From assembly GCA_030696455.1 (NCBI GenBank), contig JAUYSH010000142.1, positions 1 through 64,000 of the forward strand: DNA of 64,000 nucleotides, written 5' to 3'. Position 1 is the stretch's first letter. Every line of letters starts with the position of its first letter. Source of the DNA: Elusimicrobiota bacterium (GTDB lineage: Bacteria > Elusimicrobiota > Elusimicrobia > UBA1565 > UBA9628). A program made the translations under genes and the position numbers. Under the pieces are notes generated by a model. The model worked only from the letters and a program-made list of their open reading frames with translations, made no database searches and was not told the DNA's origin. This document shows, piece after piece, positions 35,580-57,172 of the stretch.

Positions 35580-36284
35580 CTACTTGACGAGGACGGCGTC
35601 CTCGAGGGCCACGGGGAACTTGTACATCCCGCCGAGGTCCTTGTCGAGCGTGACCTTGCCCCGGACCGTGATGGTCTTGCCGAGCTCGGTCTCGTCCTTG
35701 AGCAGGACGGTGATGTCGTCGCTGCCGTCCTTCGCGCTGCCGGAGCCGTCGCGCAGGTGGGCCCAGTTGCGATCGAGGATGCCCGGGTTGTACTTCACGA
35801 CCTTCCCGGCGACGACGACCTCCTTGCCCTTGAGCTCCTTCTTCTGGGCGTACACCTCGCCGATCGTGCGCGCGTCGGGGCCGGCGGCCTTGGTCACCTT
35901 GATCGGGCCCTTCACCTCGGCGCGGCTGCCGTGCGGGGGTATGCCCCCCATGGCATCACCCATCCCGGCGCCGCCGTGGGCTCCGTGGCCGGCCGGGGCC
36001 GAATCGGCCAAGCTGCCGAAGGCGATGGTGGAGAACTTGCGCTTCAGGCTCGGGCTCTCGAAGTCCTTCATCTCCATGGCGCCGGTCACGGTGGCCTTGG
36101 AGCCCTTCTTGATCTTGGCCTTGCTGACGGCGGCCCACTTCTGGGCGCCGGCGGGGGTCTTGAGAAGGAGGTAGGTGTAGCCCCCGGAGTCCATGGTCTC
36201 GACGACGGTGCCGGTCAGGTCGGCGGCCGAGGCGAGAGGGGAGAAGGCGAGCAAGGCGGCGGTCAGCATCAGGAGCGTTTTCAT
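35580..36284 (-). CDS. Secreted protein with two OB-like domains, end of cytochrome operon
   Basis: The ATG at 36284 with GGAGGACTCT upstream gives 234 residues with a signal peptide (TLLMLTAALLAFSPLASA). Residues 25-95 and about 145-234 look like two OB-type beta domains (LTGTVVETMDSGGYTYLLLK; KEVVVAGKVVKYNPGILDRN, DDITVLLKDE, GKTITVRGKVTLD). They are joined by a Gly/His/Met-rich linker (HGAHGGAGMGDAMGG). The linker could bind copper or another metal. It is the last gene after the barrel and cytochrome genes. OB-type periplasmic proteins often occur beside multiheme cytochromes; the function is unknown. Confidence 0.68.
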   Translation of the reverse strand: MKTLLMLTAALLAFSPLASAADLTGTVVETMDSGGYTYLLLKTPAGAQKWAAVSKAKIKKGSKATVTGAMEMKDFESPSLKRKFSTIAFGSLADSAPAGHGAHGGAGMGDAMGGIPPHGSRAEVKGPIKVTKAAGPDARTIGEVYAQKKELKGKEVVVAGKVVKYNPGILDRNWAHLRDGSGSAKDGSDDITVLLKDETELGKTITVRGKVTLDKDLGGMYKFPVALEDAVLVK

Positions 36285-36334: not shown

Positions 36335-37975
36335 TCATAGCGCGCGGGTCAAGGTGACGCTGATGTGCGAGAACGACGACGGCAGGGGCGTGGCGGTGTA
36401 GGTGTATTTGAGGGCGAGGCTCGTCTTGCCCATGGCGTAGGTCACGCCGGCGTTGGTCGTGTACTGCTCGAGGTCCGCGAAGCTTGCGTCCGCGAACAGG
36501 CTCAGGCCCCGGAGGGTCGAGTAGCTCAGGCTGCCGGTGAGGTTCTTGGAGTCGTAGGTGGCGCCCTCGGTGGTCCGCGTCTCGCTGAAGCTGCCCCCCA
36601 CGGAGGTGCGCAGCCGCTGCAAAGGGGTGGCGGAGGCGTTGAAGTTGACCTGGTCGTTGTCCGAGCCTCCTCCCGTGGCGTTGGAACGCTCCCGCGTGTG
36701 GTCGTAGCGCAAGGTGGTCTCGCCGCCGCCGTAGATCCGGGTGCGTCCCAGGCCGAGGCGGCTGCTGCGCCGGCCGGCCGGCGCGTCTTCGGTCAGGGGG
36801 ATGGTCTCGTTGGTGTTGACGTCGACGAAGAAGTTGAGGGTCCTGCGGGGCCGGAGGTCCAGACGGGTGCCGAGGCCGTCGGTGAGCGAGGCGGCCCCCG
36901 AGGCGGAGCGGGTCCAGCCCAGGTTCGCGTTGAACGCCGTCCGCACCCGCCCGTCGCGGAAGGCGAGGCTGAGGTAGGGTGCCATGCTCGCGCCGCGCGT
37001 CGTCAATCCGCGACCCGAGGCGTTGGCGATCGCGGAGTTGGTGAAGTTCCCGTGCCGGACCGGGCGGTTGCTGCTGATGAGCATGTTGTGGGTCATCGCG
37101 TGGGTCTTTCTCAGGAGGTCGCGCCGGGAGTCGTTGGTATAGTTGAGGGCGTGCCTCCAGGCTCCATGCTTGAATTCCTTCGTCCGCAGGCTGACGAAGT
37201 TGGAGAGCGATCGTGCCGTGGTCGCGTCGCCGTTGGCGAAGCGCAGGTACTCCGAATGCAAGGTCAGGTATTGGAGCGGCAGCCGCTTGAGGTTGCTAAG
37301 GCCGTAGTCGACAGAACCTCGCTGAGTCGTCGCGAGGGCGGAGGGCCGGGTCCCGCCCACGTCCTCGGTGCGCTGACGCTCCTGATTGAGGGAAAGGCGC
37401 ACGCCGGCGAGTTGGTAGGCGAGGCTTTCGCTCATGAGGGTCTGATTCTGCTCGAGCGAGACGTCCTCGTAGGCGTTCTTGATCCGGTTGTATTGCCGGC
37501 TGGCGCTTAACACGGGCAGATAGGGCAAGGAGAGGCCGGTGCTGTAGCCCCAAAATCTGTTCGTGATCTTGGTCTCCGAGGATCCCAGATATTTCGTGTT
37601 CTGGATCGAGTAGGTCGGGGCGAAGCGGACATAGCGCTGAACGTCGCGATGGAAGAGGTCGAGCGCGCCGTTGAAGTCCACGACACGTTGGCCGGTCGCG
37701 CCGGTGTTGACCGTCGAGTTGATGTTGGTGCCCTCCGAGTAGCTCCCGCCGGTCTTGAAGGTCCCGGCCGCGGGGTGCAGGAGGTCGCCGCCGAGGTTCA
37801 AGCCGTAGTTCTGGCCCCAGGAGGAGTAGCGCGCCTTTCCCGACGGGTTCCTGGTGGTGACGTCGTTGAAGTTCCAGCTCATCGAGCCCGACCGGGTGAG
37901 GGCGCGCGCCGGGGCTCCCGCTACGATCAGCAGAAGGACCAGCGCGGCTGCCCGGCTCCGGTGCGCGCGCGGCAT
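36335..37975 (-). CDS. Outer-membrane beta-barrel of the cytochrome locus
   Basis: The 546-residue protein has a signal peptide (ALVLLLIVAGAPARA-L) and then continuous alternating amphipathic strands with aromatic girdles and Asn/Thr/Ser-rich loops, ending in ISVTLTRAL. No enzyme motif is present. It lies 6 bases after the 11-heme cytochrome gene. In porin-cytochrome systems (MtrB/PioB of Shewanella and Rhodopseudomonas, Omb proteins of Geobacter) a barrel sheathes a multiheme cytochrome across the outer membrane. The position here suggests such a role, though homology to those families cannot be shown by eye. Confidence 0.72.
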   Translation of the reverse strand: MPRAHRSRAAALVLLLIVAGAPARALTRSGSMSWNFNDVTTRNPSGKARYSSWGQNYGLNLGGDLLHPAAGTFKTGGSYSEGTNINSTVNTGATGQRVVDFNGALDLFHRDVQRYVRFAPTYSIQNTKYLGSSETKITNRFWGYSTGLSLPYLPVLSASRQYNRIKNAYEDVSLEQNQTLMSESLAYQLAGVRLSLNQERQRTEDVGGTRPSALATTQRGSVDYGLSNLKRLPLQYLTLHSEYLRFANGDATTARSLSNFVSLRTKEFKHGAWRHALNYTNDSRRDLLRKTHAMTHNMLISSNRPVRHGNFTNSAIANASGRGLTTRGASMAPYLSLAFRDGRVRTAFNANLGWTRSASGAASLTDGLGTRLDLRPRRTLNFFVDVNTNETIPLTEDAPAGRRSSRLGLGRTRIYGGGETTLRYDHTRERSNATGGGSDNDQVNFNASATPLQRLRTSVGGSFSETRTTEGATYDSKNLTGSLSYSTLRGLSLFADASFADLEQYTTNAGVTYAMGKTSLALKYTYTATPLPSSFSHISVTLTRAL

Positions 37976-37981
37976 GAGCGT

Positions 37982-39841
37982 CTAGGGATCGAAGGTCCCT
38001 GAGCCTGAGTGGCAGCCCGTGGCCCGAGAGTTGCAGTTGCTCTTGCTGTAATTGTTCGGGCCTGAGGCTTTCCGGAAGCCATCGATGACGAGCCTGTCGT
38101 AGGTGCCGGCGCCGCCGTAGTTGTAAGGCGCTCCTTCCGAGGCATAGCCGATCATGCGCGAGCGTTTCGCTCCGTGCGGGACGACGACGTGGCAGGCGAC
38201 GCACTGGATATCTTTATCGCCGGCCCGGCGTCCTTCGTGCGCGTCGTGGGCCTTGTTCTTCCAGTTTCCGTTCGTGTACAGCGGATGGCAGTTCACGCAG
38301 AAGAGGTTGCTCGACCAGCTGTTGGCGCCATCCTTGATGTCCCGGAGGGTCCATGGGGTGCCGGAGGCCCTGTTCGGCCAATAGCGTCTGGGGCCTTTGA
38401 GCATTTTGGGCGCCGCCGAGCCGTGCGGACCTTTCGGATCGCTTGTCACATCGGAGGCGTGGCAGTCGGAGCAGGTCATCGTCTGGGCGCCCGGGCTCGC
38501 GTTCCATGGCGCGGACATCTGCGCGGCCGCGAGAGCCTTGGGCGCGACCGAGCCGGCCTGATCGTTGGCTGAACTGCGCACCGGGTGCGCGGAACGATTG
38601 TTCGGGTTGAACTCGATGGATTGGTCGGTCGAATTGGCGGGCGGGTTGGTCCCGAAGGCGTAGTAGGAATGGCACTTGAAGCAGAGCTGATACTCCTTGT
38701 AGTTCACCGTGTCGTTGAAGACCTGGCGCACGTAGGAGGTCGCGGCGAGCCAGGCGCCCGCGCCGTAGGTCGGCTCGACACCCCAGGCGCCGAGGAGGGA
38801 GTCGCCGATCCCGTTGCCGGGCGTCGCGTGCGTGCCGATCCGGGCCCGGTGGGGGTTGTGGCAGTCCCAGCACTCGGCGTGGCGCTTTCCTAATCCCAGG
38901 TTCGAGGCGTCGAGCTCGGGATTCTTGTGGACGCCGGAAACGGTTTCCGTCGGGTGCTTGGACGCTTTCGCGAAGAGGTTCTTGATGCTCTTGGCGCCGA
39001 GCAAGGCCGGAGAGCCGTGGCAGTTGTAGCAGGTGTTCTCCTCGGCGTCGCGCATGATGTAGGCCTGGGCCGAGGAGGCTCCGTGGACCTTGTGGCAATT
39101 GCGGCAGGAAAACTCGGCGACCGTCGTCGCCGCGGCGCCCGCGGGCGTGTATACGGTGTTGGAGACGGCGTGCGCGCTCGAGGTGTAGCCCGTCTTGATG
39201 TGGCAGGAGGTGCACAGAGCCGCGTTGGCGTTGGATTTGACCAGGAAGCTCCCGTAGGTGTTGTCGTGCGGGTCGTGGCAGGAGGTGCACTCGACCCGGT
39301 TCGTGTCTCCATAGACTTTCACGGGGTCGCCGGCCGGAGGAAGCTGTATCTCGGGGTTGGTGCCGGGCTGGGCGGGAGGGCCGGCTCCGGGCTTGACATC
39401 GTAGAGCACCGGATGGTCATTGGCGAGGTTGGTGCCGATGACCTTCGACGAGCCCAGGCCGCCGGTTACCTCCAAGGTGTTGGGCGCCACGCTGAACACC
39501 GCGCCCAGCGCCGTCACGCCGTCGTGACAGGACAGGCAGAGCTTGGTCTTGGAGGCGTTGAGGTCGCTCATCGTCGGCGTCTTCATGCCCAGGTAGTTGT
39601 TCAGGTAATTGGAGGAGTAGAAGGTGAAGTCGACGGGGGCGCCGACCCGGTTCCACAGGGCGCTCATCTGGGCGGGCTTGTGCATGGTGTGGCAGAACAG
39701 ACAGGTGAGCGTTTCATTGACCGCCTTCGGCCCGGAGGTGGCGCTGGTCGCGGCCAGGTCGTGCTTGGAGTCGATCACGGAGGCCCGTGCGGGAAGGGCG
39801 CCCGCCAGGAGGATGAACGCGGGAAGGAGGATGTTGTTCAT
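37982..39841 (-). CDS. Secreted 11-heme c-type cytochrome
   Basis: From the ATG at 39841, which overlaps the upstream stop (ATGA) and has AGAGG before it, the product is 619 residues with signal peptide ending PARA-S. Eleven canonical CXXCH sites are present: CLFCH, CLSCH, CTSCH twice, CRNCH, CYNCH, CWDCH, CFKCH, CSDCH, CVNCH and CVACH. Near the C-terminus a CX6CH (CNSRATGCH) might be a twelfth, non-canonical site. Many sites are followed by an HxxH-type or PH context, giving distal ligands. The N-terminal module (CLFCHTMHKP…LW…CLSCHDG) is shared with the two tetraheme proteins of this locus. It probably conducts electrons in the periplasm or across the barrel encoded next. Confidence 0.92.
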   Translation of the reverse strand: MNNILLPAFILLAGALPARASVIDSKHDLAATSATSGPKAVNETLTCLFCHTMHKPAQMSALWNRVGAPVDFTFYSSNYLNNYLGMKTPTMSDLNASKTKLCLSCHDGVTALGAVFSVAPNTLEVTGGLGSSKVIGTNLANDHPVLYDVKPGAGPPAQPGTNPEIQLPPAGDPVKVYGDTNRVECTSCHDPHDNTYGSFLVKSNANAALCTSCHIKTGYTSSAHAVSNTVYTPAGAAATTVAEFSCRNCHKVHGASSAQAYIMRDAEENTCYNCHGSPALLGAKSIKNLFAKASKHPTETVSGVHKNPELDASNLGLGKRHAECWDCHNPHRARIGTHATPGNGIGDSLLGAWGVEPTYGAGAWLAATSYVRQVFNDTVNYKEYQLCFKCHSYYAFGTNPPANSTDQSIEFNPNNRSAHPVRSSANDQAGSVAPKALAAAQMSAPWNASPGAQTMTCSDCHASDVTSDPKGPHGSAAPKMLKGPRRYWPNRASGTPWTLRDIKDGANSWSSNLFCVNCHPLYTNGNWKNKAHDAHEGRRAGDKDIQCVACHVVVPHGAKRSRMIGYASEGAPYNYGGAGTYDRLVIDGFRKASGPNNYSKSNCNSRATGCHSGSGTFDP

Positions 39842-40857
39842 GGCTTGACCTCTTTGATGTACTGGAAGACCTGGACGCGGGCGTTCTGGGTGTCCGCCAC
39901 GTAGACGCGGTCGCGGCCGTCGATGAAGATGCCTCCGGGCATGCTGAACTGGCCCGGCGCCGTGCCGGCGCGGCCGACGAACAGGAGGAAGTTCCTCTTC
40001 TCGTCGAAAACCTGGAAGGCCTCGAAGGCCGCGTCGACGACGAACACATGGCCTTCGGAGTCGACGGCCACGCCGCGAGGGCGGGCCAGGTAGCCGGGTC
40101 GGTTGCCGTTCTCGCCGACGGAGCCCCCGTAGCGTCCGTCCGGGCCGAACCACTGCAGGCGGAAGTTCCCCGAGTCGGTGACCCAGAGCCGGTCGGTCTT
40201 CCCGTCGAACCACATGTAGGTGGGGAAGTTGAACTCGCCCGGTTTGCTCCCGCGGCGTCCGAAGGCCTGCAGGAAGGTCCCGTCGATCCCGTACACCGCG
40301 ACCCGGTGCTTCTTGGCGTCGCTGACGTAGATCCTTTTCCCGGAGACGGCCAAAGCGGCGGGCCGGCCCAGGCCCTCGGGATCGCCCTCGAGCTCGCCCG
40401 CGACGTTGCCTTCGGCGTCGAGGATGAAGACCTTCCCGAGCTGGGAATCCAGGATGAACAGGCGCCCATCCGGGGCGCCGGCCACGCTCACGGGGCTTAA
40501 AAGAATTTTCTCGACGCCGCGCGGCCACCACTCGCCCTTCCCGGTCGCTTCTTCATAGCGCAGGACCCCGCGCATGCCGGGGTCCGCGACGAAGACGGTC
40601 CCGCCGGTGACGAACAGCCCCGTGGGCTTGACCAGGCGGTCGGGGGCGATCTCGCCCGCTTTGTCGAGGCCGATCAGCGCGCGCAGAAAACCGCCGAGCC
40701 GGCCCGTCCCGGTCACGCGCGGGCCGGCGATCTCGCCGGCGAATCTCAGGCGGGCGGTCTGCGGGGCGGCCGGCCACTGCGGGGGCGGCGGCTCGGCCGG
40801 CGGAGTCGCGGCGGTCAGGACCACGATCAGCAGTACGGCGGATAGCGCGCGGTTCAT
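39838..40857 (-). CDS. NHL-repeat beta-propeller, secreted
   Basis: The 339-residue protein has a hydrophobic secretion signal and about six NHL blades, recognisable by repeats such as RPAALAVSGKRIYVSDAKKH, RPRGVAVDSEGHVFVVDAAF and PGGIFIDGRDRVYVADTQNA. NHL propellers bind proteins or ligands on the outer face of the disc. Its ends overlap the neighbouring zinc-ribbon and cytochrome genes by ATGA, so it should be made in step with the 11-heme protein. It is paralogous to the propeller at 42191-43303. It may be an assembly or docking partner of the cytochromes. Confidence 0.88.
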   Translation of the reverse strand: MNRALSAVLLIVVLTAATPPAEPPPPQWPAAPQTARLRFAGEIAGPRVTGTGRLGGFLRALIGLDKAGEIAPDRLVKPTGLFVTGGTVFVADPGMRGVLRYEEATGKGEWWPRGVEKILLSPVSVAGAPDGRLFILDSQLGKVFILDAEGNVAGELEGDPEGLGRPAALAVSGKRIYVSDAKKHRVAVYGIDGTFLQAFGRRGSKPGEFNFPTYMWFDGKTDRLWVTDSGNFRLQWFGPDGRYGGSVGENGNRPGYLARPRGVAVDSEGHVFVVDAAFEAFQVFDEKRNFLLFVGRAGTAPGQFSMPGGIFIDGRDRVYVADTQNARVQVFQYIKEVKP

Positions 40858-41240
40858 GGCATGTCCTCGGTGACGAGAGTCCGGCGTAGGTCCGCGTCCT
40901 TCAACGCCTCGGTCAGGATCTTGCGCACCCGCCAGGCCGTGGCGAGCTTCACGTCGAGCTTGACGGATAAGGACGAGCAGGTCTGATGCCCGGAGGCCAT
41001 CAGGCGGGCGGCCTTGGCCCAGAGGGTCAGGGGAAGGTGGGTGCGGGCCAGCGGCGTGCCCGTCAGGTCGTTGAAGGTCCGTCCGCAGCCGGAGCAGCGC
41101 AGCTTGCGCCGGCCTTCCTTGCCGCGCGCGTGCAAAGTGCAGTCCCGGTGGCCGCAGCGGGGACAGCGAAGTCCCGCCTTCCAGCGGAGGGTCTGGAGGC
41201 GGGCCATGAGCAGGCTTTCATCAGTCGTCGCGTCGATCAT
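40854..41240 (-). CDS. IS1595-like zinc ribbon/helical protein without transposase core
   Basis: From the ATG at 41240 the product has 128 residues. It carries a zinc ribbon (C26-PR-C29 and C49-SG-C52, in LRCPRCGHR and KLRCSGCGRTFNDLTGT) and a helical region like the N-terminal part of IS1595-family transposases. The catalytic DDE domain is missing. It is not flanked by visible inverted repeats and is translationally coupled to the NHL gene (ATGA overlap). It is therefore more likely a domesticated DNA-binding regulator of this operon than an IS scar. A TTGACG hexamer lies in the 42 bases upstream. It is the first gene after an intrinsic terminator. Confidence 0.72.
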   Translation of the reverse strand: MIDATTDESLLMARLQTLRWKAGLRCPRCGHRDCTLHARGKEGRRKLRCSGCGRTFNDLTGTPLARTHLPLTLWAKAARLMASGHQTCSSLSVKLDVKLATAWRVRKILTEALKDADLRRTLVTEDMP

Positions 41241-41282
41241 ATTCAACCTAGTCCGAACACCGTCAAACGGAAACTCCCGCCC

Positions 41283-41319: not shown

Positions 41320-42033
41320 TTACTTGCCGCCGTGGCAGTCCAAGCAGACCGGACCGTGCTGGCCGTCGCGCGAATTGACGAGCAGCTTGCGGTTCGTGTT
41401 GGGGCTGCTGTGCATGCTGTGGCAGGTCGTGCAGCCGACGAAGTACCGCGTCGTCTTGACGCCGTTGGCGTTGGTGATGCTAACCGCGTCGCCGGCCTCC
41501 ATGGAGGCTTTAGTGACGGTGCCATACTTGCTGACCGCGGTGCGCTCGTTGCCGATGCGGTGGTTCTGGGACAGGTCGCCGGGGGCGATGGTGAGGTTCG
41601 CCCGTCCGGTGATCATCCCGCCGTCGCTGACCGTCTGCGTGCCGTCATGGCACGACAGGCACAGTCCGGAGCGGCTGTCGGCGAAGGCCCAGGTCGGGAT
41701 CAGCGAACCGGCCGCCGTCGAATTCTTGATGGGGTCGGCATCGAACGTGGCGTTCGTGTATTCCGTGGGGAGGATGCCGGATTTGACCGTCCAGGTCAGG
41801 TTCTTGTCCGGGTTCTGGCGGGCCCACAGGGGCTTCATCTTCACGGGTTTGTGCATCTCATGACAGGTCGAGCACTGGTTGATGGCCCCGGCGCCGCCGC
41901 CCGTGTAGGTGAGAGTGAAGTCATGCTTGGAGCCTTCGATCACGTTCATGCCGGACGCGGACGAGGCATGGACCTTTCCAACGAGAACGAGACCTGCGAC
42001 GAGCAGTCCCGTCAGTTTGAGCAGGGATTTCAT
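41320..42033 (-). CDS. Tetraheme c-type cytochrome, secreted
   Basis: The 237-residue protein has a signal peptide (LLKLTGLLVAGLVLVGKVHA-S) and four CXXCH sites: CSTCH, CLSCH, CTTCH and CLDCH. The first is followed by EMH, and the pattern CSTCHEMHKP…LW…CLSCHDGT matches the starts of the 11-heme protein and the tetraheme protein at 47203-47778. AGGAGG precedes the ATG by six A residues, an excellent site. A long structured leader lies upstream and a strong terminator follows, so this gene can be made at a level of its own. It is probably a periplasmic electron carrier. Confidence 0.92.
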   Translation of the reverse strand: MKSLLKLTGLLVAGLVLVGKVHASSASGMNVIEGSKHDFTLTYTGGGAGAINQCSTCHEMHKPVKMKPLWARQNPDKNLTWTVKSGILPTEYTNATFDADPIKNSTAAGSLIPTWAFADSRSGLCLSCHDGTQTVSDGGMITGRANLTIAPGDLSQNHRIGNERTAVSKYGTVTKASMEAGDAVSITNANGVKTTRYFVGCTTCHSMHSSPNTNRKLLVNSRDGQHGPVCLDCHGGK

Positions 42034-42190: not shown

Positions 42191-43303
42191 CTATTTGGCC
42201 TCCTGCGGCGCGGCGGAGGCCTTTTCCTCGGGGTAGGTGATGTATTGATAGACCTCGACGCGCTTGTTCTTGCTGTCGGCGACGTAGATGAAGTCGTCCT
42301 TATCGATGAAGATGCCCGCCGGCAGGTTCAGCTGGCCGACGACGTCGCCGGGGCTGCCGTACCACATCATGAGCTGGCCCTCGCGATTGAATATCTGAAC
42401 CCTCGAGAAGAGCGCATCCACCACGTGGATATTGCCGTCGGAGTCGGCGGCGATGCCCCGCGGCCGGGACATATAGCCCGGAGCGTCGCCGGCCTCGCCA
42501 AAGCCTCCGCGGGCGGCTCCGGTCGAGCTGAAGATATGGACGCGCGCGGCCAGGGGATCGCTGACCATGAAATCGCCGTTCTTGAACGCCCAGACGTTGT
42601 TCGGGTTGGGAAGGGCGTAATACTCCTTCTTGGCGTGGACGCACATCTCCCGGATGAAGGTGCCGTCCTTGCCGAGGAGCACGATGCGCCTGTTGCCGCT
42701 GTCGGCGACTAGGAGCTCGCCGGACGGGGTGAGGGCGATGCCGGCCGGGCGTTTGAGGCCCCCGGCCGAGCCGCCCACCCCTTCCGACTTCCACAAAAGC
42801 TTGCCTGCGGGAGAGTAGGCCTTGACCGCGCCCTCGCCGGTGTCCGAGACGTAGGCGATGCCCGCCTCGTCGGCGGCGACGCTCACCGGGGACTTGAGGT
42901 TCTCCTCGCCGCGGTCGCCGACATAGGCGAAGGTGCCCTTCTTGAGGTCGATGACCGCCATCGTCTGGGCGCCGGTGTCGGTGACATACAGCTTGTCGCC
43001 CTGGCTCCAGATGCCGTAGGGGTTGTTGAAGATATCGGGGGTCACCTTGCCTCCCGAGAACTTGGCGATCAGCTTGGTGAAGAAGCCCTCCTCCTTCTTC
43101 TCCGTCTTAGGCCTCAGGTCGTCGTCGCTCTTGATCGTGCGCACGAAGCGGATGCGCGGCTTGTCGGGCGCCGGAGGCCAGACGAGGTTGGTTTGCGGCA
43201 GGAAGGCGGGTGCCACGGCGGGAGAGGTCGAAGCCTCCGCCGCCCCCGCGGGCCCGGCGGAGACGGTCAGGATGAGAGCGAGGCTCAGGGTGATGGTTTT
43301 CAT
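42191..43303 (-). CDS. NHL-repeat beta-propeller, secreted (paralogue)
   Basis: The 370-residue protein has a signal peptide (LALILTVSAGPAGA-A) and six NHL-type blades, for example NNPYGIWSQGDKLYVTDTGA, RPAGIALTPSGELLVADSGN and LPAGIFIDKDDFIYVADSKN. Its start overlaps the stop of the regulator-cytochrome gene (ATGA). It is clearly paralogous to the propeller at 39838-40857: both have PGYMSRPRG/PGYLARPRG and end in (V)xVYQYI/VQVFQYI. Each propeller is paired with a multiheme cytochrome, suggesting cytochrome-specific partners. Confidence 0.88.
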   Translation of the reverse strand: MKTITLSLALILTVSAGPAGAAEASTSPAVAPAFLPQTNLVWPPAPDKPRIRFVRTIKSDDDLRPKTEKKEEGFFTKLIAKFSGGKVTPDIFNNPYGIWSQGDKLYVTDTGAQTMAVIDLKKGTFAYVGDRGEENLKSPVSVAADEAGIAYVSDTGEGAVKAYSPAGKLLWKSEGVGGSAGGLKRPAGIALTPSGELLVADSGNRRIVLLGKDGTFIREMCVHAKKEYYALPNPNNVWAFKNGDFMVSDPLAARVHIFSSTGAARGGFGEAGDAPGYMSRPRGIAADSDGNIHVVDALFSRVQIFNREGQLMMWYGSPGDVVGQLNLPAGIFIDKDDFIYVADSKNKRVEVYQYITYPEEKASAAPQEAK

Positions 43304-44274
43304 TTTTTATGGCACTCCCCACAGAGGGTGAAAATATCGCCGCGCATCAGCTTCGGGCTCTTGCCGGCATGCGGCTCATGGCAGGACGCGCAATCGAAAG
43401 GCTTGCCTTCGCGGCGCGGGTCGGACTTGCCTTCCTTCGCGGTCGGATGCCGCGAGACGGGATGGGCGTCCTTGAGGGCGTCCGCATCGTGGCAGCCGAA
43501 GCAGATGTCGGGGAGGGGCCCGCGGACCAAAGCCGCGCGCTTGCTCACGTGGGGATTATGGCAGGTGCTGCAGTCTCCGGAGGAGAAGGGCTGATGGACG
43601 ACGGCGCTCTCGCCCAGCTTGCGGAAGTTGGAGTGGCAGACGAAGCAGGCCTCCTCGGGAATCTTTTTAAGAGCCGGTTTTCCGTCGGCTCCTGATTTGG
43701 CGTGGCACATCTCGCAGGAGCGCGAGCCGAAGGGGATGTGCTCCTTGGCCTCGACGATGAGCTTGGGGTTCTTCGAGGCATGGGCATCGTGGCAGTCCGT
43801 GCATTTGCCCTCGAAGACGCTGACGCCGAAATGCCCCTTGGCGATCGCCGCGTCCTTCGGGTCGTGGCAGGTCGCGCACAGCTCGTTGACCGGTGAGTTG
43901 AGCAAAGGCGCGTTGTCCGAGGCATGGGGCTGATGGCAGGTATTGCAGTCCATGTCCTTGAAGGCCGAATGGACCGAGGCCTTCTTCATGTCCTCGGCCT
44001 TGGCCGTGTGGCAGGACAGGCACAGGGGCTTCTGCTCCATGGTCAGCTTGGTCGGGTCCTTCTTATCGGCGTGGCACTTCGAGCATTCGCCCGCCTTCAC
44101 GGGCGCGTGGGCGCCCGCCTTCTCCATCATCGGCGCGGCGATCTCCTCGTTGGCGGAGCGAAAGGCGTCCTTGGCCTGCTTCTTGCCGAACCAGCCCTGG
44201 GCGGAGGCGCTCCCGGCGAGGAAGGCGAGCATGAGGAGCGCGCCGATGGCCTCCTTAAGGCCGAATTTCTCCAT
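43300..44274 (-). other. Possible separately translated 11-heme cytochrome inside the regulator frame
   Basis: If translation starts at the internal ATG at 44274 (M448 of the long frame), the product is a 324-residue secreted cytochrome with a normal signal peptide. Its first residues would be shared with the last turn of the HTH recognition helix of the regulator. AAGGAGG at about 44250-44256 lies downstream of this ATG and 17 bases before the next one, so neither ATG is ideally served. The 11 sites are CSKCH, CLSCH, CNTCH, CATCH, CTDCH, CEMCH, CFVCH, CSTCH, CFGCH, CASCH and CGECH. Confidence 0.5.
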
Positions 44275-45615
44275 GCGCCGGCGCAGGGCGTCGCGCGACA
44301 GCCCGAGCGACTGCGCGGCCTTCTGCTGGTTGCCGCCGCTGCGCTTGAGCGCCTGCATGACGAGGTCCTTCTCCACGTCCTCCAGGCGAACGCCGTCCGG
44401 GGGCAAGGCCATGGAAGAGTCCTCGGCGGCGGCTTGCGCGCGCGCGATGTGCGCCGGCTGCGCCGCGGCGACGGGATGGAACTCCAGTTCGTCGAGGATC
44501 ATCATTCTCTCCAGCACGTTGCGAAGCTCCCGGACATTGCCGGGCCATTTATAGGATCGGAACTGCTCCAAGGTCTCGGACGCCAGGACGGGCTTGGTCT
44601 TGAGCATCTCCGCGCTGAGCTTGCCCAAGAGCACGTCCATGAGAGGCAAAATGTCCTCCTTGCGCTCGCGCAGGGGCAGCAAGGAGATGGTCAGCACGTT
44701 GATCCGGTAGTAGAGATCCTGCCGGAAGCGCCCCTCGGAGACGGCGCGCGGAAGGTCCTCGTTCGTGGCGGCGATCACGCGCACGTCGACGGTGATGTCG
44801 TCGCGCCCGCCGACGCGCTTGAAGGTCTTGTCCTCGAGGGCGCGCAGGATCTTGCCCTGAAGAGCGGGCGGCATGTGGCCGATCTCGTTGAGGAAGATGG
44901 TGCCGCCGTCGGCGATCTCGAACAGGCCCTTCTTCTGGCCGACGGCGCCGGTGAAGGAGCCTTTCTCATAGCCGAACAGCTCGCTTTCCAGAAGATTGTC
45001 GGGGATGGCCGTGCAGGAGATCTCCATGAAGGGCTCGAAGGCGCGCGGGCTGCCGTAATGGATGGCGCGGGCGATGCGATCCTTGCCGCACCCGCTCTCA
45101 CCGAGGATGAGGACGGTGCCGAAGGGGCTCGCCGCGATCTTCTTGGCCATGGCGAGCGCCTCCTTCATGGAGGGGCTCTCGGCCACGATCGAGGCGAAGT
45201 TGTACTTGTCGACGCCTTTCTGGTGGACGCGGTCGAGGCGCCGCTTGAACTGTGCGGTCTCCAGGACCCGCTTGAGGGTGATCTTGAGGCCGGCGAGCTG
45301 GAGGGGCTTGGAGATGTAGTCGGCCGCGCCCTCGCGCAGGGCTTCCACCGCGCTGGCGAGGTCGGCGAAGGCGGTCATGATGACGACGGGAAGCTCGGGG
45401 TTGCCTTTGCGCGCGGCCTTGAGCACGTCGAGGCCGCTGTCGCGGCCGAGGCGCAGATCGGTGAGGACGACGTCGGGATTCTCGGCCTCGAGGGCGGCCT
45501 CGGCCTCCGCCAGGTCGGCGGCCACGACGGTCTTGTAGCCCGAGTTGGTGAGATCCTGGGACAAGGACCACCGGATCAGCTCCTCGTCGTCCACGATCAA
45601 GATCTTCGACGCCAT
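43300..45615 (-). CDS. NtrC-type response regulator running in frame into an 11-heme cytochrome
   Basis: The single 771-codon frame encodes a receiver domain (D53, T81, K103), an AAA+ sigma-54 activator domain (Walker A GESGCGK 172-178, GSFTGA 219-224, FLNEIG with N243 at the Walker B Asp position) and a Fis-type HTH (about 412-450). With no stop, a secretion signal then follows (MEKFGLKEAIGALLMLAFLA, from M448, ending ASA-Q) and about 300 residues with 11 CXXCH sites, beginning at CSKCH 511. It may be a true fusion, or two genes sharing one frame with the cytochrome started inside at M448, or a lost base in the sequence. GGAGG lies before the ATG at 45615. The sensor kinase is immediately upstream. 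Confidence 0.85.
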   Translation of the reverse strand: MASKILIVDDEELIRWSLSQDLTNSGYKTVVAADLAEAEAALEAENPDVVLTDLRLGRDSGLDVLKAARKGNPELPVVIMTAFADLASAVEALREGAADYISKPLQLAGLKITLKRVLETAQFKRRLDRVHQKGVDKYNFASIVAESPSMKEALAMAKKIAASPFGTVLILGESGCGKDRIARAIHYGSPRAFEPFMEISCTAIPDNLLESELFGYEKGSFTGAVGQKKGLFEIADGGTIFLNEIGHMPPALQGKILRALEDKTFKRVGGRDDITVDVRVIAATNEDLPRAVSEGRFRQDLYYRINVLTISLLPLRERKEDILPLMDVLLGKLSAEMLKTKPVLASETLEQFRSYKWPGNVRELRNVLERMMILDELEFHPVAAAQPAHIARAQAAAEDSSMALPPDGVRLEDVEKDLVMQALKRSGGNQQKAAQSLGLSRDALRRRMEKFGLKEAIGALLMLAFLAGSASAQGWFGKKQAKDAFRSANEEIAAPMMEKAGAHAPVKAGECSKCHADKKDPTKLTMEQKPLCLSCHTAKAEDMKKASVHSAFKDMDCNTCHQPHASDNAPLLNSPVNELCATCHDPKDAAIAKGHFGVSVFEGKCTDCHDAHASKNPKLIVEAKEHIPFGSRSCEMCHAKSGADGKPALKKIPEEACFVCHSNFRKLGESAVVHQPFSSGDCSTCHNPHVSKRAALVRGPLPDICFGCHDADALKDAHPVSRHPTAKEGKSDPRREGKPFDCASCHEPHAGKSPKLMRGDIFTLCGECHKK

Positions 45616-45616
45616 G

Positions 45617-47089
45617 TCAAACCTCCGCAGCCGCCGCCGGCAGGCGCACGAAGACGCTGGTGCCGCGGTCGGGAACGCTTTCGATCCAAATCTCGCCGTT
45701 GTGCGCCATGACGATCTGGCGGGACAGCGGCAGGCCGAGCCCGCTGCCGTTCTCGCGCGTGGTGAAAAACGCGCGGAAGACGTGCTCGAGGTCGGCGCTG
45801 GAGATGCCCTTGCCGGTGTCGCTCACCTCGACGAGCAAGGTCCCCTCGGGCTCCGCCCGCGCCGAGACGCTCAGGGTCCCGCCGTCGGGCATGGAGTGGG
45901 CCGCGTTGATGAAGAGGTTCAGGAACACCTGCTCGAGCTGCCCGGGGTCGCCGCGCAGGCGGGGGAGGTTCCGCGGGATGTCGCGCTTGAGCTCGATCTT
46001 CTGCGTGCGCAGGCGGACCTCGAAAAGGTCCAGCACGCGCTCGAGCGGCTCGTGCAGGTCGAAGGGGCGCACGACGGTCTCGGGCATGCGCGCGAAGCGC
46101 AGGAAGCTGCCCATGGTCTGCTCCATGCGGTTGAGCTGGCCGAGGACCTTGCCCAGCACCTCCCGTCGGGGGCTGCCTTCGGCGGTCTCGCCTTGCAGGA
46201 CCTGGATCGTTGAGCTGATGCCCGTCAGCGGGTTGCGCACCTCATGCGCGAGGTGGGCGGACAGCTCGCCCAGCGCGGCCAGGCGGTCCAGATGGCCGAC
46301 CTGGCTGCGGTGCAGGTTGACGATCTCGCGGCGATCCTTCTCGAGCAGGCGGACCATGTTGTTGAAGCCGCGGGCGATCGAGCGCAGCTCGCCCGAGGGC
46401 AGGTCGTCGACGCGCGTGTCGAGCTTGCCGCGCGCGACCCGGTTCATCGCCTCGACGATGCGGCCCATCGGTTCGTCGATCACGCGCCGCACGACCATCA
46501 AAGTCCAGAGACCGACGATGAGGAAGGAGGCGAAGAGGATGATCAGGCGGCCCTTGAGGTTGGCCTCGGCCGCGATCTGGCGGTCGCGCTTGGGCGAGAC
46601 GAGGCGGACGTAGCCGAGCGGCCCCGCGTCGGCCCCGTGGCAGCGCGCGCAGGCTCCGCGGTTCTGAATGGGGAAGTCCATGATGATGCTCTTGGCGGGA
46701 TCGAAGGCCTTCGGCGCCTCGCGGCGCGGCTTCACGCCGGCGGCGAGATCCTGGGTGTTGACGGCCAGCTTGTCGGGGTCGAGGAGGAACATCCGGTCGG
46801 CCATGCCGTGGCTGTTGTGCACCGAGAACAGGTGCGCGATCCCGCCGCGCGACTTCTGGAGCATGGAATCGGCGATGACCCGCTCGATGACGGGGAACAT
46901 GCTGCGCATCGTCGCGCGCTCCATGTCGAGGACGCTGTTGCGCGTGTCCTGCACGTACAGCAGGAAGGTGATCGCCGTGACGGCCACGGTGAACGAGTAG
47001 AAGGCGATGAACGTCTGGCGCGCCAGGGAAGCGCCGCGCCAAGCGACGGTCAAACGCCGAAGCAGTCGGCCTGGACGCAGTCGCCGCAT
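45617..47089 (-). CDS. Sensor histidine kinase with periplasmic c-type heme motif
   Basis: From the ATG at 47089 the kinase has 490 residues: TM1 about 27-47, periplasmic domain 48-180, TM2 181-200, HAMP 201-253, phospho-acceptor H282 in HLAHEVRNPL, and an ATPase domain with N box (NLFINAAHSM), G1 (DTGKGIS) and G2 (GSGLGLPLS). The periplasmic part contains C147-AR-C-H151, a heme c attachment site, so it probably senses redox state or a gas through a covalently bound heme. It resembles the tetraheme-like DUF3365 sensors in having CXXCH in the periplasmic loop. It ends one base before the regulator ATG, forming a two-component pair. Confidence 0.9.
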   Translation of the reverse strand: MRRLRPGRLLRRLTVAWRGASLARQTFIAFYSFTVAVTAITFLLYVQDTRNSVLDMERATMRSMFPVIERVIADSMLQKSRGGIAHLFSVHNSHGMADRMFLLDPDKLAVNTQDLAAGVKPRREAPKAFDPAKSIIMDFPIQNRGACARCHGADAGPLGYVRLVSPKRDRQIAAEANLKGRLIILFASFLIVGLWTLMVVRRVIDEPMGRIVEAMNRVARGKLDTRVDDLPSGELRSIARGFNNMVRLLEKDRREIVNLHRSQVGHLDRLAALGELSAHLAHEVRNPLTGISSTIQVLQGETAEGSPRREVLGKVLGQLNRMEQTMGSFLRFARMPETVVRPFDLHEPLERVLDLFEVRLRTQKIELKRDIPRNLPRLRGDPGQLEQVFLNLFINAAHSMPDGGTLSVSARAEPEGTLLVEVSDTGKGISSADLEHVFRAFFTTRENGSGLGLPLSRQIVMAHNGEIWIESVPDRGTSVFVRLPAAAAEV

Positions 47090-47202
47090 AGGGGTTCTTC
47101 CCGCTTGCCTCGCAACGGTCCGGCCAGCCGGCGGGAGACTATGACGCCGGTCATGGCCGCTGGAGCCGGCCTGGGCGTACACTGCTGTTGGAGCCCACCC
47201 CC

Positions 47203-47778
47203 ATGAACCCCCGGCCCCGGTCGCTCATCATCCGTTCCGCGCTCGTTTTCACCGCGCTCGTCGCGGCGCTCGCGATTCGCGCTCCCCGCCCCGTTCAGAG
47301 GTTCCCGGCCGACCTGCGCGACTCCGTGGGCGAGCACCGGGCCATGCTCAGCGCGGGGCACGCCTCGTTCGCCTGCGGCGCCTGCCACATCTCCCATCCG
47401 GCGAAGGCCGCGAGCCCGCTCTGGCAGACGCAGGGCTCCGGCGACGCCGGTTTGTTCGTCCGCGATTCGGCCGCGGCGGGCGGGGTCAAGACCGGCCTGT
47501 GCATGTCCTGCCATGACGGCACCATCGCGCCGACGATCACGGCGCACATGACGACGACCGGGGGGACGGACCTGGGGGCCAACCATCCCGTCGGGATCGA
47601 TTATCAATTCGCCGCGCGAAGAGATCCCGCCGCCTTTAATGATCCGGCCGCGAATTCCCGCATCGTGCTGGAGGACGGGAAGGTCGCCTGCATCTCCTGC
47701 CACGCGGCTCACGACATCGGCTCGATCTCAGGCGCCAGCGTCCGCCATGAGGTCTGCATCGAGTGCCACCGCCGTTAA
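47203..47778 (+). CDS. Tetraheme c-type cytochrome, membrane-anchored or secreted
   Basis: From the ATG at 47203 (GGAG eight bases upstream) the protein has 191 residues. An N-terminal hydrophobic segment (IIRSALVFTALVAALAI) precedes four CXXCH sites: CGACH, CMSCH, CISCH and CIECH. The segment lacks a clear cleavage site, so it may act as an anchor. The pattern CGACHISHP…LW…CMSCHDGT and NHPVG is shared with the other two short-module cytochromes. It diverges from the sensor-kinase operon across 113 bases, a natural place for control by that two-component system. It could be an inner-membrane quinol-side or periplasmic carrier. Confidence 0.9.
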   Translation: MNPRPRSLIIRSALVFTALVAALAIRAPRPVQRFPADLRDSVGEHRAMLSAGHASFACGACHISHPAKAASPLWQTQGSGDAGLFVRDSAAAGGVKTGLCMSCHDGTIAPTITAHMTTTGGTDLGANHPVGIDYQFAARRDPAAFNDPAANSRIVLEDGKVACISCHAAHDIGSISGASVRHEVCIECHRR

Positions 47779-47900: not shown

Positions 47901-48944
47901 ATGATGAACGAATGGATGGTCGTCGGCCTGAACCACTCGACCGCTCCCGTCGAGATCCGCGAGGCGATCTCCCCGAAGCCGCATGAAGCGGGACGCATGA
48001 ACGCCATCATCAGCGAGGCCGCCGGCCAGCAGGGCGTCGTCGTCCTCGCCACCTGCAGCCGCTTCGAGGTATACTTCCAGCCCGACAAAGACGGCGAGCA
48101 GGCCGTCATCGCTTGGCTCAACCTCCGCGCCGGCCGGGACATCGGCGAGATGCTTTTCGTCCACCGCGGCGCTGAGGCCGTCGGCCACCTCTTCCGCGTC
48201 GCGGCGGGGCTGGACTCCTGGATCATGGGCGAGACCGAGATCCTCGGCCAGTGCAAGGCCGCCTACCAGGGGGCCTGCGCCGAGAAGACGGCCAACCGCT
48301 TCGGCCACCTGTCCTTCCAGCGCGCGCTGATGGTGGGCAAGAAGGTCCGCAACGAGACGCGCATCGTCGGCGGCATCGCCTCCATCGGCGGGGCGGCCGC
48401 GATGATGGCGCGCAGCATATTCTCCGATTTGAAGGAGCGCGTGGTGGTGGTCTTCGGCGCGGGGACCATGGCCGCCTCCTCGGTGCGGCACCTGCGATCG
48501 AAAGGCGCGGGCAAGCTGTTCATCAGCAACCGCAGCCTGGATAAAGGCCAGGCCCTCGCCGCCGAACTCGGCGGCGAGCCCGTCACTCTCGCGGAAGGCT
48601 TCTCCCGACTCGACGAGGCCGATATCGCCGTGTTCTCCACCGGGGCCGACCGCTATCTGCTGGACGGGGACGCAGCACTTGCCCTGTCGCGCCGCCGCCG
48701 CGGCCGGTCGCTGTTCATCATCGACATCGCGATGCCGCGCAACGTGGCTCCCGAGGTCGCCAAGGCGGAGGGCGTCTACCTGTACGACATCGACGATCTG
48801 AAGGGCGTCGTGGCGAAGAGCCTCGCCAAGCGCGAGGCCGACATGTTCCAGGCGGCGGCGATCGTGGCCGCGGAGAGCGCCGACTGCTGGCAGCGCCTGA
48901 CCTTCCCGGTGCCCGTCGCCGCGCGACAGGCCGTCGCCGCCTGA
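47901..48944 (+). CDS. hemA: Glutamyl-tRNA reductase, short form
   Basis: The 347-residue enzyme reduces glutamyl-tRNA(Glu) to glutamate-1-semialdehyde, the first step of heme synthesis in this pathway. It shows the catalytic cysteine C52 in LATCSRFEVY, the substrate region GETEILGQCKAAY, and an NADPH site VVVFGAGTMAASS. The C-terminal dimerisation helix bundle is largely missing: family members usually have about 400-430 residues, and here the protein ends soon after IIDIAMPRNVAPEVA plus a short helix. Its place beside the cytochrome genes suggests a supply of heme for them. The ribosome site is weak. Confidence 0.9.
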   Translation: MMNEWMVVGLNHSTAPVEIREAISPKPHEAGRMNAIISEAAGQQGVVVLATCSRFEVYFQPDKDGEQAVIAWLNLRAGRDIGEMLFVHRGAEAVGHLFRVAAGLDSWIMGETEILGQCKAAYQGACAEKTANRFGHLSFQRALMVGKKVRNETRIVGGIASIGGAAAMMARSIFSDLKERVVVVFGAGTMAASSVRHLRSKGAGKLFISNRSLDKGQALAAELGGEPVTLAEGFSRLDEADIAVFSTGADRYLLDGDAALALSRRRRGRSLFIIDIAMPRNVAPEVAKAEGVYLYDIDDLKGVVAKSLAKREADMFQAAAIVAAESADCWQRLTFPVPVAARQAVAA

Positions 48945-54346: not shown

Positions 54347-55069
54347 CTAGCCGAGGCGCCGCATCAGGAGCATCGCGGCCAGGCCGGCCCCAAAACTCAT
54401 GAGAGAGGAGAGGTCGCCGTGCTCGCGCCGGTGCAGCCGGGGCAGGACCTCGGCGGCCCCGATATAGAGGAAGGACCCGCCCGCGAACGCGAGGAGCAAG
54501 GCGAAGGCCCGGGGTTCGAGGCGCGCGGCGACGGCGGTGCTCGACAGCGCGCCGATGGGAGTGGCGAGGGCCACGGCGGCCAGCGCCGCCCGGCGCAGGC
54601 CCGCGGAGCCGCCGTTGAGCATGGTCGAGATCGTGAAGCCGTCCGCGAGCTTGTGCAGGATGGTGGCCGCGCCGACGGCGAGGAGGATGGGAGCCCCGGC
54701 GAACGCGGCGGCGCCCAGGTTGACGCCGTCGAAGAACGAATGGAGGAACAGCCCGGCGACGGCGGCCTTGCCGAGAGGATGGGCCGAGCAGTCCTCGGAC
54801 GCCTCGTGGCAGGGATCGAGCGGGGCGATGCTCTCCGCGGCGTAGCAAAGCACGAAGGCGGCCAGGGCCCCCCAGCCGGCGTACGCCGGGGCCAAGGTCC
54901 AGGCCTCGGGCAGGACGTCGGCGAAGGCGACGGCGATGAGGATGCCGGCGCGGAACGCCTGCACGCGCCACAGGCCGGCGCGGGCGACGACCCGGTCCAC
55001 GACGGGCGCGGCGCCGCCGGCGATCGTCGCGGCGACGGCCAGCAGAAGAATGACGCTTAGGATGAACAT
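54347..55069 (-). CDS. ZIP-family metal transporter
   Basis: Starting at the ATG at 55069 gives 240 residues with about eight hydrophobic helices. TM4-TM5 carry the ZIP metal-site pattern: LFLHSFFDGVNLG and ATILHKLADGFTIS (H..D and H..DG). A short loop with PCHEASEDC lies between helices 3 and 4. ZIP proteins bring Zn (sometimes Fe or Mn) into the cytoplasm. The gene diverges from a TonB-dependent receptor over a shared region with two palindromic operators, and a Fur/Zur-family gene is close by. Zinc uptake is the simplest reading. Confidence 0.85.
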   Translation of the reverse strand: MFILSVILLLAVAATIAGGAAPVVDRVVARAGLWRVQAFRAGILIAVAFADVLPEAWTLAPAYAGWGALAAFVLCYAAESIAPLDPCHEASEDCSAHPLGKAAVAGLFLHSFFDGVNLGAAAFAGAPILLAVGAATILHKLADGFTISTMLNGGSAGLRRAALAAVALATPIGALSSTAVAARLEPRAFALLLAFAGGSFLYIGAAEVLPRLHRREHGDLSSLMSFGAGLAAMLLMRRLG

Positions 55070-55106
55070 GAAGCCTTGGAGGCCGTCGATGGAAGCACTT
55101 CCTAGA

Positions 55107-55161
55107 TGATAACAAATTATCGGTATTGACAGCGCGGGGTATATTTGATAATAATTTATCA
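55107..55161. promoter_or_regulatory. Divergent promoter region with two Fur/Zur-type palindromes
   Basis: TGATAACAAATTATCG (55107-55122) and TGATAATAATTTATCA (55146-55161) have the same TGATAA-N4-TTATC(A/G) layout, the second being a perfect palindrome. Their centres are 39 bp apart. TTGACA at 55126-55131 and AT-rich sequence about 16-17 bases further on form a likely promoter for the TonB receptor gene, so the second site overlaps its -10 region. The first lies between the -35 and the ZIP gene. Binding by the Fur-family protein encoded at 58872 would repress both genes. Confidence 0.75.
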
Positions 55162-55177
55162 TTACCAGGAGATGACC

Positions 55178-57142
55178 ATGATCCGACTCGCGCTCGCCGC
55201 CGCCGTCGCCTTCTCGCCCGCCGCCGCCGCTCAGGATTTCGAGGCCGCGCCCATCACGATCACCGCCAAGCCGAAGCCCGCCAAGGCGCTCACCGCGCCC
55301 GCGGCGGTCACCGTCGTGACCGGCCGGGAGCTCGAGCGCGGGCGGGGACAAAGCGTCATGCAGACGATCGAGGACGCTCCCGGCGTCACGGTCAACACGA
55401 CCGGCGCCGGCATCGCCAAGCCCGTGGTCCGCGGGCTCTCCTCGCAGCGCGTGCTGACGCTCACCGACGGCGTCCGCCAGGAAGGCCAGCAGTGGGGGGA
55501 CGAGCACGGCCCGGAGATCGACGCGCACGGAGTGGACCGCATCGAGATCGTGCGCGGTCCGCAAAGCCTCCTTTACGGGCCCGAGGCCCTCTCCGGCGTG
55601 ATCAACGTCGTGCGCCGCCCGCTGAAGCTCGACGCCGAGTCCTTCAAGGTCGGCGGCCTGTTGGCCCTCGACGGCTTCAGCCACAACAAGCAGACGGCCG
55701 GCTCCATCGAGCTCCGCGGCGAGGGCCGCGGCGCCGGGGTCGCGCTGCGCGCTTCGGGGCGCGACGCCGAGGACATCCGGACCCCGCATGGGCGCCTGAG
55801 GAACAGCGGCATGAACGAACGCGACCTCGGCGCGTCGGCGGGCGCCCGCGTCGGCCCGGCGACCGTGCTGGGCGATTTCTCGCAATTCCGGCAGAACCTC
55901 AAGATCCACAAGAACCCGGCCACGGACCCGGACGCGACGACCTATCAGTTCGTCGGCCACGAGAAGGCGATCCTGCGCGCCAAGACGCCTGTTCCTTTAG
56001 GGAGCCTCGAGGCGGCGGGAGGCTGGCAGCGCAACGAGCGCCGGGAGTTCGAGGCGGCGGGCGACTCGTCCCCCGAGCTCAACCTCGTGCTCGACACCTA
56101 CACGGGCGATCTTAAGTTCCACCACGAACCGCTCGGGCCAGTGGAGGGGACGCTCGGCGTGTCCGGCGCGACCCAGCGCAACGACTCTCGCGCCGCGGAA
56201 AGGCTGATCCCGGGCTACAACCAGAAGGACCTCGGCGTGTTCCTCTTCGAGGAGCTTCCCGTCGGCCCGGTGACCTTCTCCGGCGGCGCTCGCTACGACA
56301 CGCGCCGCATGTCGGTCACCCCGGATGAGAGCCTGGGCGTCGCGGCACAGATCAAGCGCTACCAGAGCGTCAGCGGGGCGTTCGGCGTCTCGTGGGCGTT
56401 CGCCGAGGGCTGGGCGCTCGTCGGGAACATCGGCACGGGCTGGCGCGCGCCGTCGCCCTTCGAGCTGTTCGTCAACGGCGAGCACGAGGGCACGGGACGC
56501 TTCGAGGTCGGACGCTCCGATCTCCGGCCCGAGCGTTCGATCAACAAGGACGTGTCCTTGCGGCATCATTCCGGTTCCGTCCAGGCCGAGCTCAGCGCTT
56601 TCCACAACCGCGTCAACCATTTCATCTTCGCCCGGCCGACCGGCACGAACGACGTGGACTCGGACCTGCCGATATTCAATATCTCCCAGGCCAACGCGAC
56701 CTTGATCGGCGCGGAAGCGGCCATGAAGTGGCAGGCGCTGGACTGGCTCGGCATGAACGCGGGCGTCGACGTCCTGCGCGCGCAGAACGACGACCTGCGC
56801 CAGCCTCTGCCGCAGATGCCCGCGAATCGGGTAAAATTAGGCGCGCGGCTGTCGCAGAAGACCATGGGCTCCGCGAAGAACCCGTATGTATCGGCGTCGA
56901 GCCGCCTCGTCGCCCGTCAGAAACGGACGGAGGCGAACGAGACTCAGACGGCCGGTTACGGGTTGGTGGACTTCGGGATGGGCGCCGAGGTCCCGTTCTT
57001 CGGAAAAGACGCGAGCGTGGACCTGGGAGTCGAGAACGCCTTCGATCTTCCTTACCGGGACCACCTGAGCCGTTATCGCGCCTACGCGTTGAACGCGGGG
57101 CGAAGCTTCACGTTGAAGCTGACCGTGCCGTTCGGCGGCTGA
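55178..57142 (+). CDS. TonB-dependent outer-membrane receptor (ZnuD-like)
   Basis: From the ATG at 55178 (AGGAG upstream) the receptor has 654 residues: a signal peptide ending AAAAQ, a TonB-box-like APITITA, a plug domain (about 40-160, with LERGRGQSVMQTIEDAPGV and RIEIVRGPQSLLYGPEALSG), and a 22-strand barrel whose end (DLPYRDHLSRYRAYALNAGR) resembles zinc/heme-type receptors such as ZnuD. A Zn ligand cannot be proven, and no His-rich loop is seen. Its partners exbB, exbD and tonB follow directly, and its promoter carries Fur/Zur-type sites. Confidence 0.88.
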   Translation: MIRLALAAAVAFSPAAAAQDFEAAPITITAKPKPAKALTAPAAVTVVTGRELERGRGQSVMQTIEDAPGVTVNTTGAGIAKPVVRGLSSQRVLTLTDGVRQEGQQWGDEHGPEIDAHGVDRIEIVRGPQSLLYGPEALSGVINVVRRPLKLDAESFKVGGLLALDGFSHNKQTAGSIELRGEGRGAGVALRASGRDAEDIRTPHGRLRNSGMNERDLGASAGARVGPATVLGDFSQFRQNLKIHKNPATDPDATTYQFVGHEKAILRAKTPVPLGSLEAAGGWQRNERREFEAAGDSSPELNLVLDTYTGDLKFHHEPLGPVEGTLGVSGATQRNDSRAAERLIPGYNQKDLGVFLFEELPVGPVTFSGGARYDTRRMSVTPDESLGVAAQIKRYQSVSGAFGVSWAFAEGWALVGNIGTGWRAPSPFELFVNGEHEGTGRFEVGRSDLRPERSINKDVSLRHHSGSVQAELSAFHNRVNHFIFARPTGTNDVDSDLPIFNISQANATLIGAEAAMKWQALDWLGMNAGVDVLRAQNDDLRQPLPQMPANRVKLGARLSQKTMGSAKNPYVSASSRLVARQKRTEANETQTAGYGLVDFGMGAEVPFFGKDASVDLGVENAFDLPYRDHLSRYRAYALNAGRSFTLKLTVPFGG

Positions 57143-57172
57143 CGCCCGGGCTGGACCCGGGTTGGAGGAAGG

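Follow-up and report, generated by a model that had tools for sequence, protein, structure and literature searches.

How bacteria sense the extracellular path of their electrons, and adjust the cytochromes of that path to match, is largely open. In Geobacter, little is known about its many kinases and regulators in the sensing of the extracellular electron path (PMC5585712). We analyzed a 64,000-nucleotide stretch of DNA (the window) from an Elusimicrobiota genome of 4.0 Mb in 147 contigs. An earlier note on this window had described a histidine kinase with a heme c motif beside a regulator and cytochrome genes, and had proposed that the kinase senses redox state or a gas and controls the cytochrome genes. 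The locus raises the question of what the kinase senses and what it controls. The answer that we consider fairly probable is that a heme-c two-component system lies at the head of its own extracellular-electron-transfer operon and probably drives it, and that a cytochrome translated together with the regulator is probably released by signal peptidase. With sensor, regulator and conduit in one conserved operon, the question of sensing becomes directly testable.

A histidine kinase with a predicted heme c sensor domain

The kinase and its motif occupy the following positions:

45617-47089 (minus strand): sensor histidine kinase; TM1 ~28-46, heme-Cache-like periplasmic domain, TM2 ~182-200, HAMP, HisKA, HATPase_c
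46637-46651 (minus strand): CARCH, predicted heme c attachment motif; kinase residues 147-151

The kinase ORF is intact and encodes 490 residues from an ATG at 47089. We prefer this start since a GTG-started extension to 47182, present in the list of open reading frames, would read through a conserved −24/−12 promoter site (see below). The Pfam domains HAMP, HisKA and HATPase_c, together with an intact H-box (LAHEVRNP), N-box and two G-boxes, identify the protein as a sensor histidine kinase. The two hydrophobic helices place CARCH in the periplasmic loop between them, exactly as the earlier note had it, and the only cysteines of the kinase, C147 and C150, both lie inside the motif.

A search of 341 genomes of the phylum turned up kinase orthologues in 14 genomes besides that of the window, plus one distant outgroup. 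Every named orthologue record is a MAG, groundwater being the source of many, and 10 of 11 are labelled Elusimicrobia or Elusimicrobiota. CXXCH is invariant, in a single copy, in all 15 orthologous kinases, and the outgroup kinase has CYRCH; the motif is kept in 16 of 16 kinases, and a search among them for a homologue in the same context lacking CXXCH found none. Few periplasmic columns of the alignment are invariant, among them (alignment numbering) P49, M59, L85, L86, C130, C133, H134, G142 and R145; M59 corresponds to Met76 of the window kinase. The invariance of C130, C133 and H134 in the 15 orthologues, despite sensor-region identity that falls to 28-40%, and the CYRCH of the outgroup argue that CARCH is not a chance occurrence.

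A profile built from the 15 sensors matched the crystallized periplasmic heme-c domain of Geobacter GSU0935 (PDB 3b42) with an E-value of 6e-4 over columns 38-151, nearly the whole length, and matched GSU0582 with an E-value of 0.18. The Pfam model Mcp40H-20_sensor (PF21563) matched 3 of the 15 sensors (best E 9.6e-4). The best E-value to the Tll0287-like model (PF11845), which matched five of the 15, was only 0.086, indicating that the window sensor is a divergent relative. In the predicted structure of the window sensor (pLDDT 84), CXXCH lies in a short helix within a strand-helix-strand arrangement; in the heme-Cache family the motif is described in a helix between two strands (PMC12889525). 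A Foldseek search with this model ranked 3b42, a domain-swapped dimer, first among isolated periplasmic sensor domains, as a weak match (E 0.02, low TM-score).

The axial heme ligands of GSU0935 are Met60 and His144; the Met is bound when the heme is reduced and leaves on oxidation, and the potentials are −251 mV for GSU0935 and −156 mV for GSU0582 (PMC8396549). In our profile alignment the invariant Met76 lines up with position 26 of the 3b42 chain; this is Met60 provided that the CXXCH histidine, at chain position 110, is His144 (a renumbering by arithmetic). A Met kept without exception at the ligand position suggests that Met binding is linked to redox state. The conserved CXXCH and the profile match to GSU0935 support the heme c sensor reading of the earlier note, with heme attachment predicted from the motif. 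The two periplasmic cysteines could in principle pair, so that CARCH would be a structural disulfide, or a metal site, with no heme bound; we consider this extremely improbable given the full CXXCH with its invariant His, the probable kinship to a crystallized heme-c domain, and the three cytochrome c assembly proteins encoded in the source genome. The window sensor probably works like the heme-c Cache sensors and belongs with them as a divergent member.

The ligand Met also bears on the nature of the signal. The main alternative to a redox signal is that nitric oxide (or CO) is what the kinase detects: NO and CO displace Met60 in GSU0935/GSU0582 (PMC8396549), and a signal-fused heme-Cache of P. 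azotoformans holds NO tightly (PMC12889525, a 2026 preprint). We regard NO sensing as unlikely, however, since the invariant Met points to redox-linked binding and the products of the operon are parts for electron transfer and not for NO detoxification. Redox sensing is the more likely function of the kinase.

A sigma-54 response regulator continuous with an 11-heme cytochrome

The gene next to the kinase had been taken for a plain regulator. That it encodes a regulator, of the sigma-54 type, holds; what had been overlooked is that the same ORF continues into a multiheme cytochrome:

43300-45615 (minus strand): fusion protein, 771 aa; REC 5-111, AAA+ 143-310, Fis HTH 411-451, junction, 11-heme cytochrome 511-771
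44200-44256 (minus strand): junction segment, aa 454-472, between the HTH and an AxA signal peptidase-like site

Residues 1-454 make up a sigma-54 response regulator (REC, sigma-54 AAA+ and Fis HTH) with the key motifs of the class present (D53, GESGCGKD, GSFTGA, GGTIFLNE and NQQKAAQ). No stop codon follows the HTH; the frame runs into KEAIGALLMLAFLAGSASA (aa ~454-472) and then into a cytochrome with CXXCH motifs at 511, 532, 557, 580, 605, 634, 657, 682, 705, 742 and 765. AlphaFold modelled the 771-residue fusion poorly (pLDDT 49), and the model was left unused. PDB chain 6r2q_A, which we take to be MtrA (the PDB table lists another name), was considered as a direct relative of the fused cytochrome and set aside, the similarity being at the repeat level only.

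The open frame spans the junction in 12 further genomes (two of these contigs end inside the cytochrome), with identities over the HTH-cytochrome part ranging between 89% and 53%; a thirteenth contig stops immediately short of the junction. Because the same frame is open in 12 other assemblies at such divergence, we rejected the idea that the fusion stems from a misassembly or a frameshift. One genome, G044, is an exception, with separate regulator and cytochrome genes and ~500 bp of other sequence between them. The G044 cytochrome groups with the fused ones in the cytochrome tree (support 98/96), which suggests a secondary split, although the regulator tree leaves the matter undecided. In the outgroup G219, the kinase adjoins a separate regulator (53% identical), and an 11-heme cytochrome gene lies further down the cluster. 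This unfused arrangement indicates that the fusion is derived and probably arose in the ancestor of these families.

In the related cluster, the outgroup genomes G219 and G218 encode a 14-heme cytochrome (L141:9230-10552 and L142:9018-10346), whose gene in G219 directly follows the unfused regulator. A stand-alone, REC-like receiver domain of 126 aa (L141:12950-13327) lies just upstream of the separate 11-heme gene of the outgroup. Genome G331, from another lineage of the phylum, encodes a protein with 23 CXXCH motifs that looks like two tandem 11-heme copies (L144:7951-9852).

Our contig scan for fusions used HTH-derived patterns and so covers fusions of this regulator subfamily. Word searches of open-access papers, which are weak evidence for absence, found no precedent for a regulator and an exported multiheme cytochrome in one chain. 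The regulator-cytochrome fusion appears to be new. A heme-c sensor kinase taken alone is an already known kind; its pairing with a cytochrome-fused sigma-54 regulator is a new variant of the two-component system, with no precedent in the papers searched. A single chain of transcription factor and exported multiheme cytochrome fixes the ratio of the two and probably ties the regulator to the membrane.

In most orthologues the junction is a hydrophobic stretch of 16-19 residues whose sequence varies but which closes with AxA or a near match (in three orthologues the end was read from the alignment). It resembles a cleaved signal peptide. Attachment of c hemes takes place outside the cytoplasm, so the C-terminal cytochrome must be exported through this internal signal. 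Cleavage of the fusion by signal peptidase is likely from the form of the segment, and either way the regulator would retain a hydrophobic tail.

The missing stop could be incidental if the cytochrome were made mainly from an internal start within the HTH coding region, with the fusion as a minor product. In most genus-level orthologues an in-frame ATG does occur six codons short of the HTH end, with AAGGAGG nearby in the window. That ATG is CTC or CTG in five orthologues, however, and a useless fusion would be expected to gain stop codons in more lineages. In three orthologues (L071, L081 and L082), moreover, the 33 or more codons that precede the signal segment include no ATG, GTG or TTG, so that the cytochrome is exportable there only as part of the fusion; an internal start as a general explanation is rejected for these three, and overall we judge it quite improbable.

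The main alternative for the fusion is that it stays uncleaved and spans the membrane; the regulator would then have an 11-heme antenna of its own in the periplasm, which would trade electrons with the heme of the kinase and directly modulate the regulator. The conservation of the frame over long divergence and the sound N-in, C-out topology agree with such a protein, and it would give both two-component partners c hemes in the periplasm. However, the hydrophobic stretch is short and its conserved AxA-like end is typical of signal peptides that are cleaved, and the outgroup G219 as well as G044 work with a separate cytochrome; an uncleaved fusion is, in our assessment, unlikely. A sigma-54 activator still joined across the membrane to an 11-heme cytochrome, such that redox state reaches gene control through both the heme kinase and the hemes of the regulator, seems to us rather improbable. 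Release of the cytochrome is the preferred reading.

The operon, its predicted promoter and a proposed mechanism

The regulator and cytochrome genes that had been reported beside the kinase are both present, and belong to a longer run:

47112-47126 (minus strand): predicted −24/−12 type (sigma-54) promoter, TGGCCGGACCGTTGC, 23 nt before the kinase ATG
42191-43303 (minus strand): exported NHL-repeat beta-propeller; start overlaps the fusion stop (ATGA)
41320-42033 (minus strand): tetraheme cytochrome; full-length OmcE match (7tfs, E 1.2e-6, residues 13-234)
39838-40857 (minus strand): second NHL-repeat protein
37982-39841 (minus strand): second 11-heme cytochrome; OmcE match over the N-terminal 215 residues (7tfs, E 4e-28), MtrC/MtrF-like further on
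36335-37975 (minus strand): putative outer-membrane beta-barrel, porin-like by sequence character and position only
35580-36281 (minus strand): exported protein of no known family that usually accompanies the cluster
47203-47778 (plus strand): divergent tetraheme cytochrome, first half OmcE-related

We take 7tfs to be the OmcE filament. For the putative barrel, no family match was found, and a barrel profile searched against the PDB gave no match. Neighbouring genes from the kinase through the fusion to the first NHL gene overlap or lie 2-4 bp apart. Where the contigs are long enough to show it, nearly all genomes keep the arrangement kinase, fusion, NHL, tetraheme, NHL, 11-heme, barrel.

Several other features lie in or near this run. 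A small ORF between the tetraheme and second NHL genes (40854-41250, minus strand) encodes a zinc ribbon of the IS1595 transposase type (Pfam E 1.2e-7). Relatives such as L066 and L071 have only ~120 bp in the equivalent gap, so this ORF may be a transposon remnant or an insertion specific to this genome. On the other side, glutamyl-tRNA reductase (hemA, heme biosynthesis; 47901-48944, plus strand) adjoins the heme protein cluster. Further away (54347-58844), one plus-strand run encodes a TonB-dependent receptor (55145-57142), TonB and a pair that resembles ExbB/ExbD in sequence character; divergent beside it is a frame containing a ZIP metal transporter domain (54347-55960, minus strand).

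Alignment of the orthologous upstream regions revealed the candidate promoter, which a strict sigma-54 consensus scan allowing two mismatches had missed. GGC-N7-TTGC occurs at the aligned place upstream of the kinase in 14 of 15 orthologues, and the fifteenth keeps GC and TTGC. Shuffled upstream sequences held such a site in 1-5% of cases each, with the caveat that the 15 upstream sequences are related and the matches are not independent draws. The fixed −24 and −12 elements on either side of a freely varying spacer point to selection on a −24/−12 promoter. The source genome also has an rpoN-like gene; both a candidate −24/−12 promoter and an RpoN-like factor are available to the sigma-54 regulator, which presumably activates from this site. 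Inspection by eye of the divergent intergenic region for enhancer sites of the regulator gave nothing convincing. In the same region (47090-47202), genus-level orthologues have a sigma-70-like TTGACA-N17-TACACT before the divergent tetraheme gene; the window lacks the −35 part.

The proposal that the kinase controls cytochrome genes fits with a conserved sigma-54-type promoter at the head of the operon that they share, and we propose that the regulation runs as follows. The periplasmic heme-Cache-like domain of the kinase would carry one covalent heme, bound by His151 and probably, when reduced, by Met76, and this heme would report the redox state of periplasmic electron carriers. Its oxidation or reduction would alter kinase activity in one direction or the other, and the kinase would phosphorylate its partner, the sigma-54 response regulator. 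With RpoN, the regulator would activate the −24/−12 promoter before the kinase and raise expression of the whole operon; this arrangement is most simply read as positive autoregulation of the operon as a whole. Regulator and 11-heme cytochrome would be translated as one chain, with the REC-AAA-HTH part in the cytoplasm and the signal peptide right after the HTH sending the C-terminal cytochrome to the periplasm. Signal peptidase would most likely free the cytochrome, leaving the regulator with a hydrophobic membrane tail.

Comparison with known systems

The sensor is closest to the heme-Cache proteins (sCache_heme; DUF3365/Tll0287, GSU0935/GSU0582), with which it shares HAMP, a pair of TM helices that flank a single periplasmic domain, probably Cache-like, and a Met aligned with the distal ligand of GSU0935; in the predicted structure its CXXCH also sits between two strands, as in the family (PMC12889525, PMC8396549). 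The output of GSU0935 is an MCP, whereas that of the window protein is a histidine kinase; heme-Cache kinases are known (PMC12889525).

In gene content, the operon with its putative barrel recalls the undecaheme electron transfer (Uet) cluster of Tenderiales and Gallionella, which likewise combines undecaheme and tetraheme cytochromes, NHL-repeat proteins and a barrel (PMC10734462). The passages on Uet covered here mention no kinase or regulator fusion (PMC10734462). The triheme periplasmic cytochromes and peptidylprolyl isomerase (PPIase) of Uet were sought among the ORFs of the window operon and not found; for this reason, and because the likeness is one of gene content, we do not file the window cluster as Uet.

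The tetraheme protein matches the OmcE nanowire subunit over its full length, and the second 11-heme protein does so in its N-terminal third. The latter differs from OmcE in its further C-terminal part.

The regulator moiety is like the NtrC/AtoC-type sigma-54 response regulators in its REC, AAA+ with GSFTGA and Fis HTH, in the usual order, but unlike them it carries, past the HTH, a signal-peptide-like segment and then the 11-heme cytochrome. In membrane-bound transcription factors of the ToxR/CadC type, a cytoplasmic DNA-binding domain is joined through one hydrophobic segment to a periplasmic C-terminal domain. The fusion shares this layout, but its domain content is not ToxR-like: it joins a phosphorylatable sigma-54 activator to a multiheme cytochrome, with a likely cleavage site between them.
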